Of a stretch of DNA of 11,300 bases, positions 1 through 10,570 are shown piece after piece; the first letter of the stretch is position 1; every line of letters begins with the position of its first letter. Under the pieces are notes generated by a model. That model was not told where the DNA came from. It saw nothing but the letters and a program-made list of their open reading frames with translations, and did no database searches. This DNA comes from Bacteroidales bacterium UBA7574. Its GTDB lineage: Bacteria > Bacteroidota > Bacteroidia > Bacteroidales > Paludibacteraceae. The position numbers and the translations under genes were made by a program. The stretch lies in assembly GCA_002479035.1 (NCBI GenBank), contig DLLA01000161.1, positions 1-11,300 on the forward strand, given 5' to 3'.

Positions 1-385
1 TGAGGTTCTCGAGCCACAGCATAACAATGGCTCTGTCTACCAGTCCCAAGCGGTGAATACGGCTGTAGAGAGCCTGCACCTGTTGGGTGTCATCGTCTTG
101 GTCGGTATAGAGGTCGATATCCATACTGAGCGGTACACGTTCACCGCGCGACTTGCGTTTGCGGTCTGCCGAGATACAGGTGTTCATACTCACGCGGTAT
201 ATCCACGTGGCTTCCCGGCTCTCGCCGCGGAAGGTGTCGTAGCCCTGCCAAAGGCGTATGAGAATGTCTTGGAAGAGGTCGGCGACCTCGTCTTTGTCCG
301 AAGAGAACATATAGCAGATACTGTATATCGTGCTTTTGTTCCGCCGGACAAGCCGGGCAAATTGTTGTTCTTTTGTCAGTTCCAT
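1..385 (-). CDS. ECF-type RNA polymerase sigma factor, 3' end cut by window edge
   Basis: The gene starts at ATG 385-383 and is open for 128 codons to the left edge. It directs RNA polymerase core to a specific promoter set in the cytoplasm. Residues about 9-75 form sigma region 2: the segment YMFSSDKDEVADLFQDILIR (25-44) matches the region 2.1-2.2 core-binding helix, and TFRGESREATWIYRVSMNTC (51-70) matches the region 2.3-2.4 melting and -10 reading part. After an acidic linker (DQDDDT, 95-100), region 4 begins (LVDRAIVMLWLENL, 115-128); its DNA-binding helix lies outside. It sits 147 bp downstream of the anti-sigma/barrel gene on the same strand, so it could be co-transcribed with it, but the gap holds palindromes and a hairpin that suggest its own control. 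Its own regulator, if any, would lie further left. The family is clear; the regulon is unknown. Confidence 0.93.
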   Translation of the reverse strand, partial: MELTKEQQFARLVRRNKSTIYSICYMFSSDKDEVADLFQDILIRLWQGYDTFRGESREATWIYRVSMNTCISADRKRKSRGERVPLSMDIDLYTDQDDDTQQVQALYSRIHRLGLVDRAIVMLWLENL

Positions 386-405
386 CAGTTTGTTTTGTTT
401 AGTTG

Positions 406-424
406 TCGGTGGGCGTGCCACCAA
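406..424 (-). other. small hairpin in the leader of the left-edge sigma gene
   Basis: On the minus-strand transcript a 7-bp stem with one G.U pair (TTGGTGG / CCACCGA) closes a 5-nt loop, ending about 20 nt before the ATG at 385. No U-run follows, so it is not an intrinsic terminator. It could shape the 5' leader of the sigma mRNA, or mean nothing. Confidence 0.3.
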
Positions 425-440
425 CCGGTTTGCATGCAAA
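423..440. promoter_or_regulatory. two overlapping perfect palindromes upstream of the left-edge sigma gene
   Basis: AACCGGTT (423-430) and TTTGCATGCAAA (429-440) are both perfect palindromes sharing two bases, 38-55 bp upstream of the sigma start codon. The rest of the 386-532 gap holds no gene and no clear TTTG/TAnnTTTG promoter. A dimeric regulator site is possible; binding is inference only. Confidence 0.3.
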
Positions 441-532: not shown

Positions 533-1765
533 TTATATGTTTGTTTTGGGGATGGAGAAACGGATGCCGAGGTTGAGGTTGAAGTTGAAGGGGCGTTGCT
601 TGTGGATGGTCTGCAGGGTGGAGCGGTCATCGAAATAGTAAGCAGCCCCCGGCTCAAGGTAAAGCCCTGCCCAGCGGGAAAAGTTGTATTGGATACCCGC
701 AGAGATGTTGGCGGAGAACTGCCATGGTTTGTCGGAAATGCGCTCTGTTTCAGTGGTTTGTGTCTGTTTTTTGAGCACATATTCCGTTGTGGTGTAGCCG
801 CTGACGCACTTCTCTGCCAGGCCCCCAAGGGAAGCATAGATGTCGAGTTGCCGCCACGTATAGATGTTGCACCTGAGGTTGAGCGGCACCCCTACGTAGT
901 GCAAGGTCTGCTGTGTGGCGATGTAGTTGTCAGAGGTACCTTCCTGTCCGTCCGCCAGCAGGCAGGCATACGCGACGCCCGTCTCAAGGCTCACGCGGGG
1001 GTGTACCTGATACGCGACATTGATGCCCGCACGAATGGGGATGTGGTGCGTCAGGGTGCGCTGTGTCGGCTTGCTGCTGTTCAGAAGCATGATGCCGAGT
1101 ATGGGTGCATCTGCCCACTCCACTCCATTGACTGATGCGCTAAGAGCCTTAGGGTTAGGGTGATAGGTGGATGTAGTGGTGCTATTCAACCCACCTGCGC
1201 CATACGCGGAAAGCGCAAGGGTTCCACGCCAGCGGTCGTGCGATACGAGGGGGGCAGGTTGCTCCTCCAACGGTATCTCGGGAAGAGTCGTCGGGAGGTC
1301 TTTTGTCTCCGTTTGACGGAGAGCGGGGGGCTCCGAGACGGGTGTGCTCGTGGGCTCTTGAGGTGTGGGCAGGTCTGCGGGTTCGTCGGGCTGTAGTTGG
1401 GAGTTGGATGTGGCTTGCGCTATGTTCCGGCGGGGTGTAGGTTCAGGATATGTCTCTTGGGGTATGGGCATAGTTGGTGGCGTATATTCTTGATTATCAA
1501 CAGGAACTTCCTCTTGCCATTCGGCTTGTGCCACTTGGGTAGGCGTGGTTGTTCGGGTGAGCCAGATGCCTACTCCGCCGAGGGCAATGACCAATAATGC
1601 CACGGCTGCTGCATAACCGTGCCCCTTCCTCCACAAGAGGACGGGAACGCGCCGTTTCTCTTTTGGGGGCATCTGCGATTCTATCTGTTGCCACAAGCCG
1701 ACGGGTTCGTCCGTCTCAAAGTCCGACATGCGGTCGTGTATGTCGTTCAGCCATTTTTCTTTCAT
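533..1765 (-). CDS. Dma-like dual membrane-spanning anti-sigma factor with C-terminal outer-membrane beta-barrel
   Basis: Probable sensor linking the outer membrane to the sigma factor encoded just upstream. I chose ATG 1765 (410 aa) because its ATGA overlaps the sigma stop codon; an in-frame ATG at 1798 would add 11 residues inside the sigma gene. Residues 1-49 are a cytoplasmic segment (MKEKWLNDIHDRMSDFETDE at the start) suited to holding a sigma factor. One hydrophobic helix spans about 50-69. Residues 71-177 are a linker with about 20 prolines and many Thr/Glu, long enough to cross the periplasm. From 178 to the end, alternating beta-strands rich in Tyr/Gly/Leu (GTLALSAYGAGG, VSLETGVAYACLL, WAGLYLEPGAAYYFDD, FNFNLNLGIRFSI) fit a small outer-membrane barrel of the OMP_b-brl_2 type. 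There is no N-terminal secretion signal ahead of the helix, so it is not an ordinary porin. The same layout is known for Dma1 of B. thetaiotaomicron, which controls the sigma factor Das1 and vesicle formation; orthology to Dma1 itself is not shown here. Confidence 0.85.
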   Translation of the reverse strand: MKEKWLNDIHDRMSDFETDEPVGLWQQIESQMPPKEKRRVPVLLWRKGHGYAAAVALLVIALGGVGIWLTRTTTPTQVAQAEWQEEVPVDNQEYTPPTMPIPQETYPEPTPRRNIAQATSNSQLQPDEPADLPTPQEPTSTPVSEPPALRQTETKDLPTTLPEIPLEEQPAPLVSHDRWRGTLALSAYGAGGLNSTTTSTYHPNPKALSASVNGVEWADAPILGIMLLNSSKPTQRTLTHHIPIRAGINVAYQVHPRVSLETGVAYACLLADGQEGTSDNYIATQQTLHYVGVPLNLRCNIYTWRQLDIYASLGGLAEKCVSGYTTTEYVLKKQTQTTETERISDKPWQFSANISAGIQYNFSRWAGLYLEPGAAYYFDDRSTLQTIHKQRPFNFNLNLGIRFSIPKTNI

Positions 1766-2301
1766 AAAGCGTTGTTTGCGGGGTGCTGTTTTATCCATTT
1801 AGCCAAAAGTGCCTTGGCGCGATGCAGTTGGGAAGCCGAGGTGCTCTCCGTGATATGGAGGAGGTCGGCAATCTCTTTGTGGCTCTTGCCCTCGATGACG
1901 TACAAGTTGAAGACTGTGCGATAGCCATCGGGGAGCGCGCGTATGAGTTTGTATATCAGTTCGGTGGGTACACCTGTGGTGTCGGGTTCTTCGTCGGGGA
2001 TTTCCTCCATACCGTCTATGTCCTGCCAAAGGATGTGGCTGTCGCGGAGCCACTTGAGTGCCTCGTTCACCACGATGCGCGTAAGCCACGCTCGGAGAGA
2101 GCCTTCGCCGCGATAGACAAAAGCGGGGAAAGATGAGAAGATGTGGAGGAAACTGTCTTGCAGAATGTCGCGCACGTCCTCGTCGTTGGTGATGTAGCGT
2201 GCACAGACAGCCGTGAGATAGCGCACGTATCGGGTATAGAGCAGGTGCGGTGCCTCAGCATCGCCACGTTGCAAACGCTTTACCAACTCTTGTTCACTCA
2301 T
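1762..2301 (-). CDS. ECF-type RNA polymerase sigma factor, partner of the downstream anti-sigma/barrel protein
   Basis: A complete 179-aa ECF sigma factor, normal length for the family. Region 2 covers about residues 18-88, with the core-binding helix EDVRDILQDSFLHIFSSFPA (41-60) and the promoter-melting/-10 segment GEGSLRAWLTRIVVNEALKW (65-84). An acidic linker (about 94-109) leads to region 4 (about 112-168), whose helix-turn-helix (HKEIADLLHITESTSASQLH, 141-160) would read the -35 element. The TGA stop overlaps the ATG of the anti-sigma/barrel gene as ATGA, so translation of the two is probably coupled and the products made in step. No TAnnTTTG promoter is visible upstream; instead the 142-bp gap holds an 11-bp tandem repeat ending about 40 bp from the start codon. 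ECF systems often activate their own gene, which would fit the missing housekeeping promoter, but that is inference. Confidence 0.95.
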   Translation of the reverse strand: MSEQELVKRLQRGDAEAPHLLYTRYVRYLTAVCARYITNDEDVRDILQDSFLHIFSSFPAFVYRGEGSLRAWLTRIVVNEALKWLRDSHILWQDIDGMEEIPDEEPDTTGVPTELIYKLIRALPDGYRTVFNLYVIEGKSHKEIADLLHITESTSASQLHRAKALLAKWIKQHPANNAL

Positions 2302-2340
2302 CTGTATCGTCAGCCTATCCTACCGACAAGGACAGCAATA

Positions 2341-2395
2341 TCTACCGTGTATCTACCGTATATCTACCGTGTATGTACCGTATATCAACCGTAGT
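2341..2395. repeat. five-copy 11-bp tandem repeat upstream of the ECF sigma/anti-sigma pair
   Basis: Five contiguous 11-bp units with consensus TCTACCGTRTA. Units 1 and 3 are identical; units 2 and 4 differ by one base; unit 5 (TCAACCGTAGT) is degenerate. G and A alternate at position 9, so there is a 22-bp higher-order period that is 21/22 identical between its two copies. A further CTACCG at 2320-2325 lies exactly 22 bp before unit 1's CTACCG, in phase with the array. The array lies 40-94 bp upstream of the sigma start codon. One turn of B-DNA is about 10.5 bp, so the ACCG cores fall nearly on one helix face, as expected for cooperative protein binding. The remainder of 2302-2443 contains no gene. 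Confidence 0.8.
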
Positions 2396-2443: not shown

Positions 2444-3196
2444 TCAGTCCACACGAGAGGTCATTTCGGGGATTCTATTTAGGAAAACCGGTCGGCGTGA
2501 ACTGGGGCGCAAATCAAACTCGACGGACTTCTCGCCACTGAAAGACTGCCATTTGAGGGTCATCTTGATGGGATTGGCAGAGGGACACAGGGCGTTCAGG
2601 TTGAAGGCGATGAGGGCATCGCCCATGGTGCCGCCGACATCGCCCAGTGCATCGTGGCGCAACTCCAACTCAAAGGAGTTGTCGGGGTTGGTGCCCATTA
2701 AGAGGTTGATATTGTGTTTCTTACCCGTTCCACCCCAAAGCGTGCGCACACGCAAAGTGAGATAGCCGTCCTCGGCAATCGTGACCCAGTCGCGTACAAT
2801 CTCAATCGGGTCGGTGCCATAGATGGAGTCGTTCTGTATGCCCATGGTTGGCATAGGGTTCTTGGTTCGTATACTATCTATCCAGTTGATATACACATGG
2901 TTGTCGATGTCCGTTTCGGAGTAGTTGACGAGTGCGCGTACCTCTCTGCCGAAGGGGGAACGCGTGATGTTGGACGGGTAGAGCGTGGTGCTGTCGTCCA
3001 ACTGAAGAATGAACACGCTGTCGCCTTGCGTGCAGGCGGTTACGAGAGCAGTCGGGTAGTAGAGGTCGGGTTCATGGTTGTTGCTGCACGCCGGCAAACA
3101 CAAAAGCAAAAGACTCAGGATGGTGATGCCCATAAGCGCGTACATCGCGTAGAAAAATCGGGTCAGAGTCAGATTTTCGTTCTTTTTCATACTCAT
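2444..3196 (-). CDS. NigD-like lipoprotein
   Basis: A 250-aa secreted lipoprotein of the NigD family, which is largely confined to Bacteroidota and has no firm biochemical role. A hydrophobic signal (about residues 14-34) ends in a lipobox (LCLPAC) with the lipidated cysteine at 37. The next residues (SNNHEP) lack a strong acidic outer-surface export signal, so a periplasm-facing position is likely. Residues about 48-115 fit the N-terminal OB-like domain (VFILQLDDSTTLYPSN, then REVRALVNYSETD). About 130-245 fits the C-terminal beta-sandwich, with the family hallmarks DWVTIAEDGYLTLRVRTLWG, NPDNSFELELRHDALGD and the closing strand LTLKW-like TLKWQSFSGEKSVEFDL. A second ATG at 3190 would shorten it by two residues and is equally possible. 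It stands alone, 142 bp before the sigma gene and 153 bp after the zinc-ribbon gene, whose terminator separates the two. I saw no consensus promoter in 3197-3294. Confidence 0.88.
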   Translation of the reverse strand: MSMKKNENLTLTRFFYAMYALMGITILSLLLLCLPACSNNHEPDLYYPTALVTACTQGDSVFILQLDDSTTLYPSNITRSPFGREVRALVNYSETDIDNHVYINWIDSIRTKNPMPTMGIQNDSIYGTDPIEIVRDWVTIAEDGYLTLRVRTLWGGTGKKHNINLLMGTNPDNSFELELRHDALGDVGGTMGDALIAFNLNALCPSANPIKMTLKWQSFSGEKSVEFDLRPSSRRPVFLNRIPEMTSRVD

Positions 3197-3294
3197 TATC
3201 AGTTTGTTGGTTGAACATTATGATTATCTGCCCTATAAATCCACATACGTCCGAAATCTTGCATGAGCCGTGAATTTTTTTGTTTTTTTTCTAC

Positions 3295-3349: not shown

Positions 3350-4102
3350 TTATTTCTCGCCCATTTCGGGGTCCACGAGGATACGTCCGCAGAACTCGCA
3401 GACGATGATTTTCTTGCGTTGGCGGATGTCCAACTGCCGCTGTGCGGGAATCTTGCTGTGGCAACCGCCGCAACTGTCGCGCTCGACCTTGACAACAGCC
3501 AAACCGTTGTGCGCATTCTTGCGGATACGGCGGAAAGCGGTCAGGAGACGCTCGTCGATACCCTTCTCCAATTCAGCAGCACGGAGCATGAGTTTTTCGG
3601 TTTGGTCCTTGGTCTCACCGAGGATGGAGTCGAGTTCGTTGCGCTTCTGGTTGAGGTCCACGGTGCGCTCCTCGATGTCGGAGATAGTCTTGGCTTTATC
3701 TGCCTGACGTGCCTCCAAATCAGCGGTAGCGGTGCGAATCTTCTTTTGCGACAACTCGATGTCAAGTTCCTGGTACTCAATCTCTTTGGTGAGATTGTCG
3801 AACTCGCGGTTGTTGCGCACGTTGTTCTGCTGTTCGCGGTAGCGGGAGATGGCCGCGTTGCAGTTCTCGATGCGGACACGGTGGTCGGAGATAGCGGTCT
3901 CCAACTCTTTGATGTCGTTCTCGATATTGGAGAGACGTGTTTTGAGTCCCTCAACCTCGTCGCTCATGTCCTTGACCTCCTGCGGCAGTTCGCCGGCGAG
4001 GATGCGCAACTCGTCGATTTTGGAATCGACCTCTTGCAACTCATAGAGGGCACGCAGTTTGTCCTCTACGGTCAGTTCTTTTTCTACTTTCTCTTTTGCC
4101 AT
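3350..4102 (-). CDS. coiled-coil protein with C-terminal C4 zinc ribbon (DUF164 / zf-RING_7 family)
   Basis: A 250-aa cytoplasmic protein of the family whose best-studied member is Chlamydia CT398. Residues about 12-195 are almost wholly charged heptad-repeat helix (for example LRALYELQEVDSKIDELRIL, then EVEGLKTRLSNIENDIKELE), expected to fold as a long antiparallel coiled-coil hairpin. The central YREQQNNVRNNREFDNLTKE (about 87-106) is the conserved part of one arm, where related proteins carry 'NNREYxAL'-like sequence. A zinc ribbon closes the protein: Cys211 and Cys214 (CGGC), Cys235 and Cys238 (CEFC), all four intact, followed by GRILVDP. The molecular role is not established; partners such as sigma-54 and type III secretion proteins were proposed in Chlamydia. 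It starts 17 bp after the Nif3-like gene, and this pairing recurs in many bacteria as I recall. Transcription should stop at the hairpin just downstream. Confidence 0.93.
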   Translation of the reverse strand: MAKEKVEKELTVEDKLRALYELQEVDSKIDELRILAGELPQEVKDMSDEVEGLKTRLSNIENDIKELETAISDHRVRIENCNAAISRYREQQNNVRNNREFDNLTKEIEYQELDIELSQKKIRTATADLEARQADKAKTISDIEERTVDLNQKRNELDSILGETKDQTEKLMLRAAELEKGIDERLLTAFRRIRKNAHNGLAVVKVERDSCGGCHSKIPAQRQLDIRQRKKIIVCEFCGRILVDPEMGEK

Positions 4103-4119
4103 ATTCGTTGTATTTTAGT

Positions 4120-4923
4120 TTAATCGAATGATATGTGATTGTCAGCATAGTACCTGACGGGGCTGCGGTCGGTTGCGGCGATGTGCACCTCTATATAAGG
4201 TGTGAGGAGTTCGCGGAAGATGTCGCGCGTGAATTGCTCGCTCACCCAGTGGTCGAGGTCGATGATGCCGATGCGTCCGACGGCACTCTGCATCTCGTGG
4301 TACTTGAAGTCGGCGGAGATGTACACATCTGCTCCCTGTGCAATGGCGGTTTCCATAAATTCAGCCCCCGCCCCTCCGCATAGGGCAATGGTCAGCACCT
4401 CGTGTTTCTCGGGCTCGATGCAACGTATGCCCGAATAGTCTGTGCGGAATGCGCTATGCACAAGTTGCACGAAATCAGTCCATTGCATAGGTGTCGGTAG
4501 GTTGCCTATCACACCTAACCCCACCTCTTCGCGCCCCTGTTGCGGGGAGAGGATACGGTATTCCGCGATGCCGATGCGCTCTGCCATGCGCCCGCTGACG
4601 CCGTGGAGGTAACTGTCCATGGACGTGTGCGCGGAATAGATGGCAATCCCGTGACGGATAGCCTGCTCCACACAACGTTCCTGCGGCGTGCTGCCCGTGA
4701 GGTGCTTGAGCCCGCGGAAGAGCAACGGATGGTGGGATATGATGACATCGCAATGCTTTGCAATAGCCTCATTGACAATAGATTCCGTAACATCTACTGC
4801 CAACAATGCCGCCTTTACCTGTGCATTGCGCTCACCCACCTGCAGTCCCGAATTATCCCAAGCCTCTTGGTAACTCAAGGGAGCAACAGATTCTATGCTA
4901 TTGATGATTTCCTGAAGAATCAA
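4120..4923 (-). CDS. Nif3-like dinuclear metal centre protein (YbgI/YqfO family), TTG start
   Basis: A 267-aa member of the Nif3 family, ring-forming proteins that bind two metal ions per subunit. Some members are labelled GTP cyclohydrolase I type 2, but the physiological reaction is unsettled. Metal ligands expected for the family are present: His64-His65 in SHHPLLF, Asp103 in HTSMDSYLHGVS, and His225 with Glu229 in DLDHWVSEQF. That last motif is usually GHYESE-like, so the ligands are kept but the glycine and first glutamate are changed. AWDNSGLQVG (21-30) is the usual N-terminal signature. It is the short form; many Bacteroidota homologues are near 365 aa with an inserted middle domain, and only about 95 residues separate Asp103 from the C-terminal lobe here. 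No ATG exists before residue 102; TTG 4923-4921 places MILQEIINSIESVAPL exactly where the family begins and overlaps the upstream stop as TTGA, so translation is probably re-initiated there. Confidence 0.93.
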   Translation of the reverse strand: MILQEIINSIESVAPLSYQEAWDNSGLQVGERNAQVKAALLAVDVTESIVNEAIAKHCDVIISHHPLLFRGLKHLTGSTPQERCVEQAIRHGIAIYSAHTSMDSYLHGVSGRMAERIGIAEYRILSPQQGREEVGLGVIGNLPTPMQWTDFVQLVHSAFRTDYSGIRCIEPEKHEVLTIALCGGAGAEFMETAIAQGADVYISADFKYHEMQSAVGRIGIIDLDHWVSEQFTRDIFRELLTPYIEVHIAATDRSPVRYYADNHISFD

Positions 4924-5453
4924 CCTTTTTTGGCACCAACGCCCGTCTTTACGGACGCTACTGCGGATTTCTGCGTTTTCACCTGTGCCTTTGGCGCGGG
5001 TTTCTTCACCTCTTGCTTCTTGCCCTCAACGGCCACAGCCTCCTCGTCGCCCTCGTCCTCTTTGGTGGTGAAGTCGGTGATGCCGGCGTTGATGAGGATG
5101 TTGTACCACTGCACCAGTTTGCGAATATCCGTGGGATATACGCGGTCACGGTCGAAATCGGGCAGTACCTCGGCGAAGTAAGCGCGCAGGGCATCGTTGT
5201 CCGCTTTCTTGGGGTCGATAGATGCTACTTTCAGGCCTTCTTTCTCGCCCAGTTTGGTCAGCACCTCGCTGAGGGCGATGTCGTCACCGGTGGTGAACAT
5301 GGACACTTCTGCCAACGACACAATCTTGTCGCGCGCGTAGGTCGGCATGCGTTTGCCGTCGATGAGCGACTCCACAATCAGCATGTTGTTGCCGCGACTT
5401 ACCAACTTGTATAACCCGGGCTTGCCCGTGATGGATAGGATATTCTTAAGCAT
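4920..5453 (-). CDS. DUF5606 domain-containing protein
   Basis: A 177-aa protein of a Bacteroidota family with no known function. Residues 1-130 form the conserved domain: LKNILSITGKPGLYKLVSRG (2-21) at the start, a middle with ALSEVLTKLGEKEGL, and the hallmark RDRVYPTDIRKLVQWYNILI near its end. From about 133 the sequence changes to a low-complexity tail, first acidic (KEDEGDEEAVAVEG) and then Lys/Ala/Val-rich, ending GVGAKKG; this tail is probably disordered. There is no signal peptide or membrane segment, so it should be cytoplasmic. A strong Bacteroidota promoter lies 53-84 bp upstream of the ATG, making this the first gene of a three-gene unit. Its TGA stop overlaps the TTG start of the Nif3-like gene. 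The lysine-rich tail could contact nucleic acid, but nothing in the sequence proves that. Confidence 0.9.
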   Translation of the reverse strand: MLKNILSITGKPGLYKLVSRGNNMLIVESLIDGKRMPTYARDKIVSLAEVSMFTTGDDIALSEVLTKLGEKEGLKVASIDPKKADNDALRAYFAEVLPDFDRDRVYPTDIRKLVQWYNILINAGITDFTTKEDEGDEEAVAVEGKKQEVKKPAPKAQVKTQKSAVASVKTGVGAKKG

Positions 5454-10507: not shown

Positions 10508-10570
10508 TCTACATTTTTGGTATGAATTTGTCGATTATAATCTACATTTTCAGTATGAATTTGTCGATTA
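10508..10570. repeat. two 30-bp direct repeats with 33-bp period upstream of the AAA/DUF4143 ATPase gene
   Basis: Copies at 10508-10537 and 10541-10570 match at 28 of 30 bases, starting TCTACATTTT and ending GAATTTGTCGATTA, with 3 bp between them. They lie 14-76 bp upstream of the ATPase gene's -33 box. A third copy is not present. The rest of the 295-bp gap (10344-10638) holds the two divergent promoters and, at 10425-10507, AT-rich DNA in which I see nothing definite. Confidence 0.85.
10530..10545. promoter_or_regulatory. near-perfect palindrome at the repeat junction
   Basis: GTCGATTATAATCTAC pairs with its own complement at 7 of 8 positions, with a perfect core GATTATAATC (10533-10542). 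It forms where the end of one direct repeat meets the start of the next. The outer ends of the repeat pair carry only half sites (TCTAC at 10508 and GTCGATTA ending at 10570). This is a plausible operator, not proven. Confidence 0.4.

Follow-up and report, generated by a model that had tools for sequence, protein, structure and literature searches.

The minus strand of the window (the whole stretch of 11,300 nucleotides from Bacteroidales bacterium UBA7574 that was analysed) carries an ECF sigma factor gene that runs into the gene for a 410-aa protein. In the sigma-E/RseA and FecI-FecR-FecA systems the state of the outer membrane controls an ECF sigma factor via a membrane anti-sigma factor, and sensor and anti-sigma factor are separate proteins, whereas here the two appear to be one. 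The Pfam and NCBIfam models for FecR and RseA gave no match in the window, and no TonB receptor was seen among the window proteins scanned. In order of transcription the locus reads nigD, ECF sigma gene and 410-codon anti-sigma gene (Table 1), and we consider it very probable that these form an envelope-stress operon of NigD, sigma factor and dual-membrane anti-sigma factor. The nigD gene and a conserved element define this unit, and both were absent from an earlier sequence-only reading of this DNA.

Table 1. Features of the NigD-sigma-anti-sigma locus, in window coordinates.
Feature	Position	Strand	Evidence or remark
Promoter-like element TGCAAGATTTCGGACGTATGTGGATTTA, candidate ECF sigma site	3236..3263	-	Pattern and matrix score
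250-aa lipoprotein of the NigD1/NigD2 family (first gene in the unit)	2444..3196	-	NF051862; NigD_N, NigD_C
11-bp tandem array, 5.1 copies, ATATCTACCGT on the plus strand	2338..2393		TRF; nigD-sigma gap
ECF sigma factor, 179 aa (Das1/EcfO-like)	1762..2301	-	Sigma70_r2, Sigma70_r4_2; TIGR02937 cut-off passed
ATGA overlap, sigma stop (1762-1764) and anti-sigma start	1762..1765	-	Sequence
Dual-membrane anti-sigma factor (predicted), 410 aa	533..1765	-	Structure model and family likeness
N-terminal segment, residues 1-49, predicted helices 2-14 and 24-30	1619..1765	-	Helices from the structure model; presumed cytoplasmic and sigma-binding
Presumed inner-membrane helix, residues 50-71	1553..1618	-	Structure model
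Disordered linker, presumed periplasmic, residues 72-177, 22 Pro in 106	1235..1552	-	pLDDT <50 except residue 138
Outer-membrane beta-barrel, OmpA/OprF-like, residues ~178-406	548..1234	-	Confident structure prediction
Beta-signal-like motif NLGIRFSI, residues 398-405	551..574	-	Pattern match
Beginning of a second ECF sigma gene, truncated at the window edge	2-439	-	Follows the anti-sigma gene; Sigma70_r2 E 1.9e-14

The sequence-only reading had given the 410-aa protein an N-terminal segment, one membrane helix, a proline-rich linker and a C-terminal barrel, and structure prediction bore this layout out, with the closed C-terminal barrel predicted confidently. The N-terminal segment is marked by W5, P21 and W25, conserved in 83, 96 and 93% of 106 aligned rows, respectively. 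In 78 of 80 relatives the most hydrophobic run of 19 residues, sought in the first 130, begins at 39-75 and is weak (1.15) in one locus, L009; the other two relatives are truncated frames. We presume that the N-terminus is cytoplasmic and the linker periplasmic. Linkers in the family are 100-162 residues long (median 121 aa) and are the least conserved portion of a 25-row alignment, in which 35 of the 38 invariant columns fall in the barrel. The barrel matches PF13505 at E 4e-5, below that model's cut-off, and a search for solved relatives by sequence found none at E 1. Foldseek also matches Flavobacterium and Porphyromonas BAM-complex chains (TM 0.20-0.24), which we take as a shared barrel fold only. 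With the Pfam and NCBIfam anti-sigma models the protein gave no match at E 0.1 other than DUF2275, which scored weakly and below threshold across the membrane helix (E 0.01). The C-terminal NLGIRFSI resembles a beta-signal, and 118 of 119 relatives have the pattern, compared with a mean of 15 and a maximum of 23 for shuffled tails. A mirror-tree comparison with the sigma factor gave a partial r of 0.32 for the N-terminus, reached in 0 of 300 permutations; because the partial r between sigma factor and barrel is higher (0.63), we rejected this comparison as a sign of contact between the N-terminus and the sigma factor.

To place the pair, relatives of the anti-sigma factor were scanned in one genome per species, giving 311 encoding stretches, and the best 80 of these were treated as loci. 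All 80 are named Bacteroidota, including Flavobacteriia, and the window's anti-sigma factor is 27-46% identical to these relatives over the best segment. A sigma gene adjoins upstream in 78 of the 80 (77 with a tighter limit), and the other two have less than 240 bp upstream and are untestable, so the sigma/anti-sigma pairing proposed from the sequence holds in 78/78 testable loci. A census of 295 genomes from one order found some match to the anti-sigma alignment in 129, many of them weak or partial, and all 30 census loci returned have the sigma gene alongside, or 27/27 once three duplicates of scanned loci are removed. The argument that the ATGA overlap fixes the sigma/anti-sigma ratio is weak, because just 39 of the 80 relatives have it. 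The sigma factor itself scores below the cut-off of TIGR02985, and in a quick tree its nearest proteins come from Candidatus Liminaster caballi and Candidatus Minthosoma equi assemblies, in a grouping with an SH-aLRT of 93% that was not starred. The second sigma gene at the window edge was rejected as the partner, as 78/80 scanned loci have one sigma-model match each and its own tblastn matches there were nine and weak; of the 30 census loci, L089 and L093 do have a second sigma match downstream.

These features are those of a family that has been described recently. PMC13088901 describes the Dma layout as a sigma-binding end, a membrane helix, a disordered tether and a barrel, and describes the family as confined to Bacteroidota with its genes adjoining ECF21 sigma genes. 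The window has in common with it the single membrane helix, the disordered tether, the C-terminal barrel and the adjoining ECF sigma gene, and the likeness to Dma1/Das1 that the sequence-only reading had drawn is thus upheld at the level of the published layout. In Phocaeicola vulgatus, EcfO is paired with Reo, an anti-sigma factor reported to reach to the outer membrane (PMC9308784, PMC13114119). EcfO-Reo and the window pair each consist of an ECF sigma gene beside a larger anti-sigma gene whose product has an inner-membrane region and a C-terminal outer-membrane barrel, and nigD adjoins the pair in both; the P. vulgatus nigD, ecfO and reo genes bear the consecutive locus numbers M0N98_03762-03761-03760 (PMC9308784, PMC13114119). 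Because the published family descriptions match its layout and gene neighbours, the window locus is of the Dma/Reo kind, and, judged from its sequence and predicted structure, the 410-aa protein belongs to the Dma/Reo dual-membrane anti-sigma family (Das1/Dma1; EcfO/Reo of B. fragilis and P. vulgatus). The Dma and EcfO-Reo work is also cited in PMC12596196 and PMC11878027.

The first gene of the unit links it to a known kind of target. The window NigD passes NF051862, the NCBIfam NigD1/NigD2 model named for BT4005/BT4719, at E 9.3e-54 and 182 bits against a cut-off of 60, and with the described layout this is the ground on which we liken the locus to Das1-Dma1-NigD1. In B. thetaiotaomicron bt_4005 is nigD1; vesicle output rises through nigD1 once dma1 is lost, and the dma1 mutant needs NigD1 for this rise (PMC13088901). 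The P. vulgatus EcfO regulon contains three nigD genes, one with an adjoining locus number, and NigD3293 is made only when EcfO is free (PMC9308784, PMC13114119). The window nigD would likewise be under the control of its sigma factor.

Gene order differs between the window and Bacteroides or Phocaeicola. In those Bacteroides and Phocaeicola loci examined that show nigD, the gene is divergent and the element lies before sigma, whereas in the window nigD comes first on the same strand with the element before it. The Phocaeicola massiliensis anti-sigma factor is 29% identical to that of the window over the best segment, and its nigD neighbour suggests that this locus is that species' EcfO-Reo. 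A NigD neighbour was counted at E <=1e-6 within 2.5 kb upstream, in loci that offered 2 kb or more on that side (n=72). NigD stands beside the pair in 56/72 of these scanned loci, sharing its strand in 46 and divergent in 10. The remaining 16/72 had room upstream and no nigD. Two Myroides loci (L038, L057) have a sigma/anti-sigma pair and no nigD neighbour, and the NigD1/NigD2 model had no match in the genome holding L057. NigD is therefore not obligatory, and in that Myroides genome the pair must have other targets. A tblastn search with 11 window proteins (1e-5, flanks of up to 5 kb on each side of the 80 scanned loci) recovered the anti-sigma factor in 80 loci, the sigma factor in 78 and NigD in 51, and the seven proteins other than these and the second sigma had no matches. 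G030, which has the highest profile score of the census genomes, keeps the triple at identities of 53% (NigD), 60% (sigma) and 32% (anti-sigma), and the other window proteins have no match there in 19.9 kb. Elsewhere in the window, genes for a Zn-ribbon coiled-coil protein, NIF3/DUF34 and DUF5606-DUF6852 form a close-packed row at 3350-5453 on the minus strand, and a 33-bp direct repeat of 1.9 copies lies at 10508-10570, where the longest frame of a plus-strand AAA_14 ATPase gene begins. Rfam gave no match in the window at gathering score.

A promoter-like element ahead of nigD has the form TGCAAGATTT-N12-GATTTA, with TGCA starting 67 bp ahead of the first nigD ATG. It is the single match to its pattern in the window, with 0 matches in 200 shuffles, and a looser search allowing up to three mismatches returned the same lone site, with at least one match in 15/200 shuffles. 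With the window excluded from matrix training the site scores 34.1 bits, where the 99% control lies at 7.3. Dyad counting ranked TGCA-N19-ATTT first in the nigD upstreams (32/63 sequences) and joint first in the sigma upstreams (20/109, tied with an A-rich pair), in sets that included the window and three duplicate loci and for which the top dyad in five shuffles per set was at most 9. Read from the sequences, many same-strand nigD genes are preceded by TGCAAG(A/G)TTT-N12-(G/C)ATTTA, and sigma genes with a divergent nigD by TGCAGTATTTTT...CATTTA.

How the element is placed was measured in two ways. A five-fold matrix test put it upstream of 46/50 held-out same-strand nigD genes at a 1% control rate, the other 4/50 loci being without it as scored. 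A matrix trained on nigD sites alone was then used to score sigma and divergent nigD upstreams, and it found the element before 8/12 sigma genes with a divergent nigD, which it had never been trained on (the remaining four fell below control), 4/50 with a same-strand nigD, 11/43 with no nigD in reach, and 4/12 divergent nigD genes. Refining the matrix on all loci but the window raised the divergent classes to 12/12 for sigma and 7/12 for nigD, with 2/50 same-strand sigma genes and 14/44 without nigD, values that are partly circular. Since the element precedes nigD in 46/50 same-strand loci and sigma in 4/50 of these, and precedes sigma in 8/12 when nigD is divergent, it tends to stand ahead of the first gene of the unit, as far as sequence comparison can tell. 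Since sigma factors of this sort are reported to act on NigD genes, and since the element precedes the first gene here, the unit looks like an autoregulated NigD-sigma-anti-sigma operon.

The element was also sought in whole genomes. A strict pattern gave 12 matches in 12 genomes against one for the reversed pattern: five before a sigma/anti-sigma pair, one before the nigD of such a unit, two before other NigD-like genes, three before unassigned genes with lipoprotein-like starts (at 66, 94 and 167 bp) and one with no likely start within 300 bp. Another strict pattern gave 21 matches in 15 of 295 genomes against two control matches among those listed; 13 of the 21 lie inside unrelated reading frames, one precedes nigD, two precede sigma, and five precede lipoprotein or signal-peptide starts judged by eye, in the two genomes with the element before sigma. 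The strict pattern is too strict for listing regulons. The letters of the element were not found in the literature searched, but according to PMC7366714 a B. fragilis EcfO motif had already been identified (Ndamukong 2013), so we do not claim the element as new.

The gap between nigD and sigma in the window holds the 11-bp array of Table 1, with 84% matches and about one copy per DNA turn, and an adjoining GC-rich 11-bp array at 2397-2429. No array like that at 2338-2393 was seen by eye in the last 150 bp upstream of sigma in the relatives. An RNA hairpin attenuator in this gap was considered and rejected, as its folding z is +0.8. Among the relatives' nigD-sigma gaps, 12 of the 29 that are at least 40 nt long have z below -2 (16/45 gaps were shorter and dropped), and it is possible that folded gaps there (e.g., L008, L011 and L029) lower sigma relative to NigD.

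For the window we picture the short N-terminal helices holding the sigma factor at the inner membrane, with the barrel seated in the outer membrane, as would be expected mostly from the family. A disturbed outer membrane or barrel would end this hold, probably through cutting of the anti-sigma factor, and the freed sigma factor would then transcribe its own operon from the element, raising NigD, a surface lipoprotein with a link to vesicle output in B. thetaiotaomicron, and making more sigma and anti-sigma alongside. As induction raises sigma and anti-sigma together, the response would be both self-amplifying and self-limiting. Repression of the sigma factor, NigD as target and outer-membrane stress as trigger are taken by analogy from the family, and for this protein we infer that residues 1-49 bind the sigma factor, that release is proteolytic and that autoregulation acts from 3236-3263. 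The sequence-only reading had called the signal unknown, which seems too bleak, as BcpT and bacteroidetocin A both induce the EcfO-Reo pair of P. vulgatus, for which the authors infer outer-membrane stress as the signal (PMC9308784, PMC13114119).

That release involves cutting is suggested by natural fusions in which sigma factor, membrane helix, linker and barrel form a single chain, found in four loci (L113, L114, L116 and L117) and as the 120 listed proteins (P0121-P0240) of 2887 recovered with one of these; Dma3 is described in similar terms (PMC13088901). The sigma and barrel parts of such fusions are homologous to those of the window, which has them as two separate ORFs. In three fusions checked with HMMs the sigma domain extends to about residue 177 and the match to the anti-sigma model begins only at model position 29-38, its first 28 or more positions being missing, and the sigma factor thus appears to replace the anti-sigma N-terminal end. 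With those positions gone, the fusions were of no use as a model for sigma/anti-sigma contact. None of the 120 listed fusion proteins (0/120) fits the beta-signal pattern, and the four examined end in W. A fused sigma factor cannot be freed by letting go, and hardly without cutting, and therefore proteolytic release seems likelier than protease-free signalling. IutY, also a fusion, is cut and activated by Prc and RseP (PMC8999054), and the claim that the window protein would work without a protease relay is not supported.

If cutting releases the sigma factor, the barrel could be a mere anchor, with periplasmic proteases or the linker sensing stress. The need to cut a fused sigma factor and the poor conservation of the linker agree with this, but the invariant columns concentrated in the barrel seem more than an anchor needs, and in the window no gene next to the pair was recognised as a protease gene, so we regard a passive barrel as possible, if doubtful. 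Direct mechanical or conformational signalling, in which a ligand or change of state of the barrel acts through the linker on the N-terminus and frees the sigma factor with no proteolysis, strikes us as unlikely: the model does show a single chain that spans from one membrane to the other by way of a long disordered linker, and the Dma2 authors hypothesise sensing of a surface glycan (PMC13088901), but a disordered linker of the family's lengths would be a poor pushrod, fusions with sigma covalently on the membrane helix would need cutting, and IutY depends on Prc and RseP for its activation (PMC8999054). That the protein is no anti-sigma factor at all but a plain outer-membrane barrel whose signal peptide is long and whose gene shares a transcript with a sigma gene would fit the lack of solved relatives and of anti-sigma matches beyond DUF2275, but is highly improbable given that conserved W5, P21 and W25 are odd for a signal-peptide n-region, that the fusions put sigma in the N-terminal place, which needs a cytoplasmic end, and that relatives of the same layout act genetically as anti-sigma factors (PMC9308784, PMC13088901).

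Proteolytic release, our preferred reading, allows a more specific version that we regard as unlikely. Given the beta-signal-like motif at the end of its barrel, every newly made anti-sigma chain would need insertion by BAM for protection, and the anti-sigma factor could report outer-membrane assembly as a BAM client: when BAM fails, newly made anti-sigma would be cut and the sigma factor freed without a ligand. If this were true, a single molecule would serve as sensor, client and repressor, giving Bacteroidota a counterpart of the sigma-E response, and every round of induction would provide a test substrate made by the operon itself. Together, the fusion argument and the beta-signal raise two questions, namely whether a protease is needed and whether BAM failure alone is enough.

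The Dma/Reo family was already known, and what is added here is a unit with nigD first on the same strand and a conserved element ahead of it. Dma/Reo proteins are a recent class, and the window puts a divergent member of it in one unit with NigD, a type of target connected with both gut expression and vesicle formation. The element ties the sigma factor to NigD in both gene orders and provides a sequence handle for such regulons in uncultured gut Bacteroidota.
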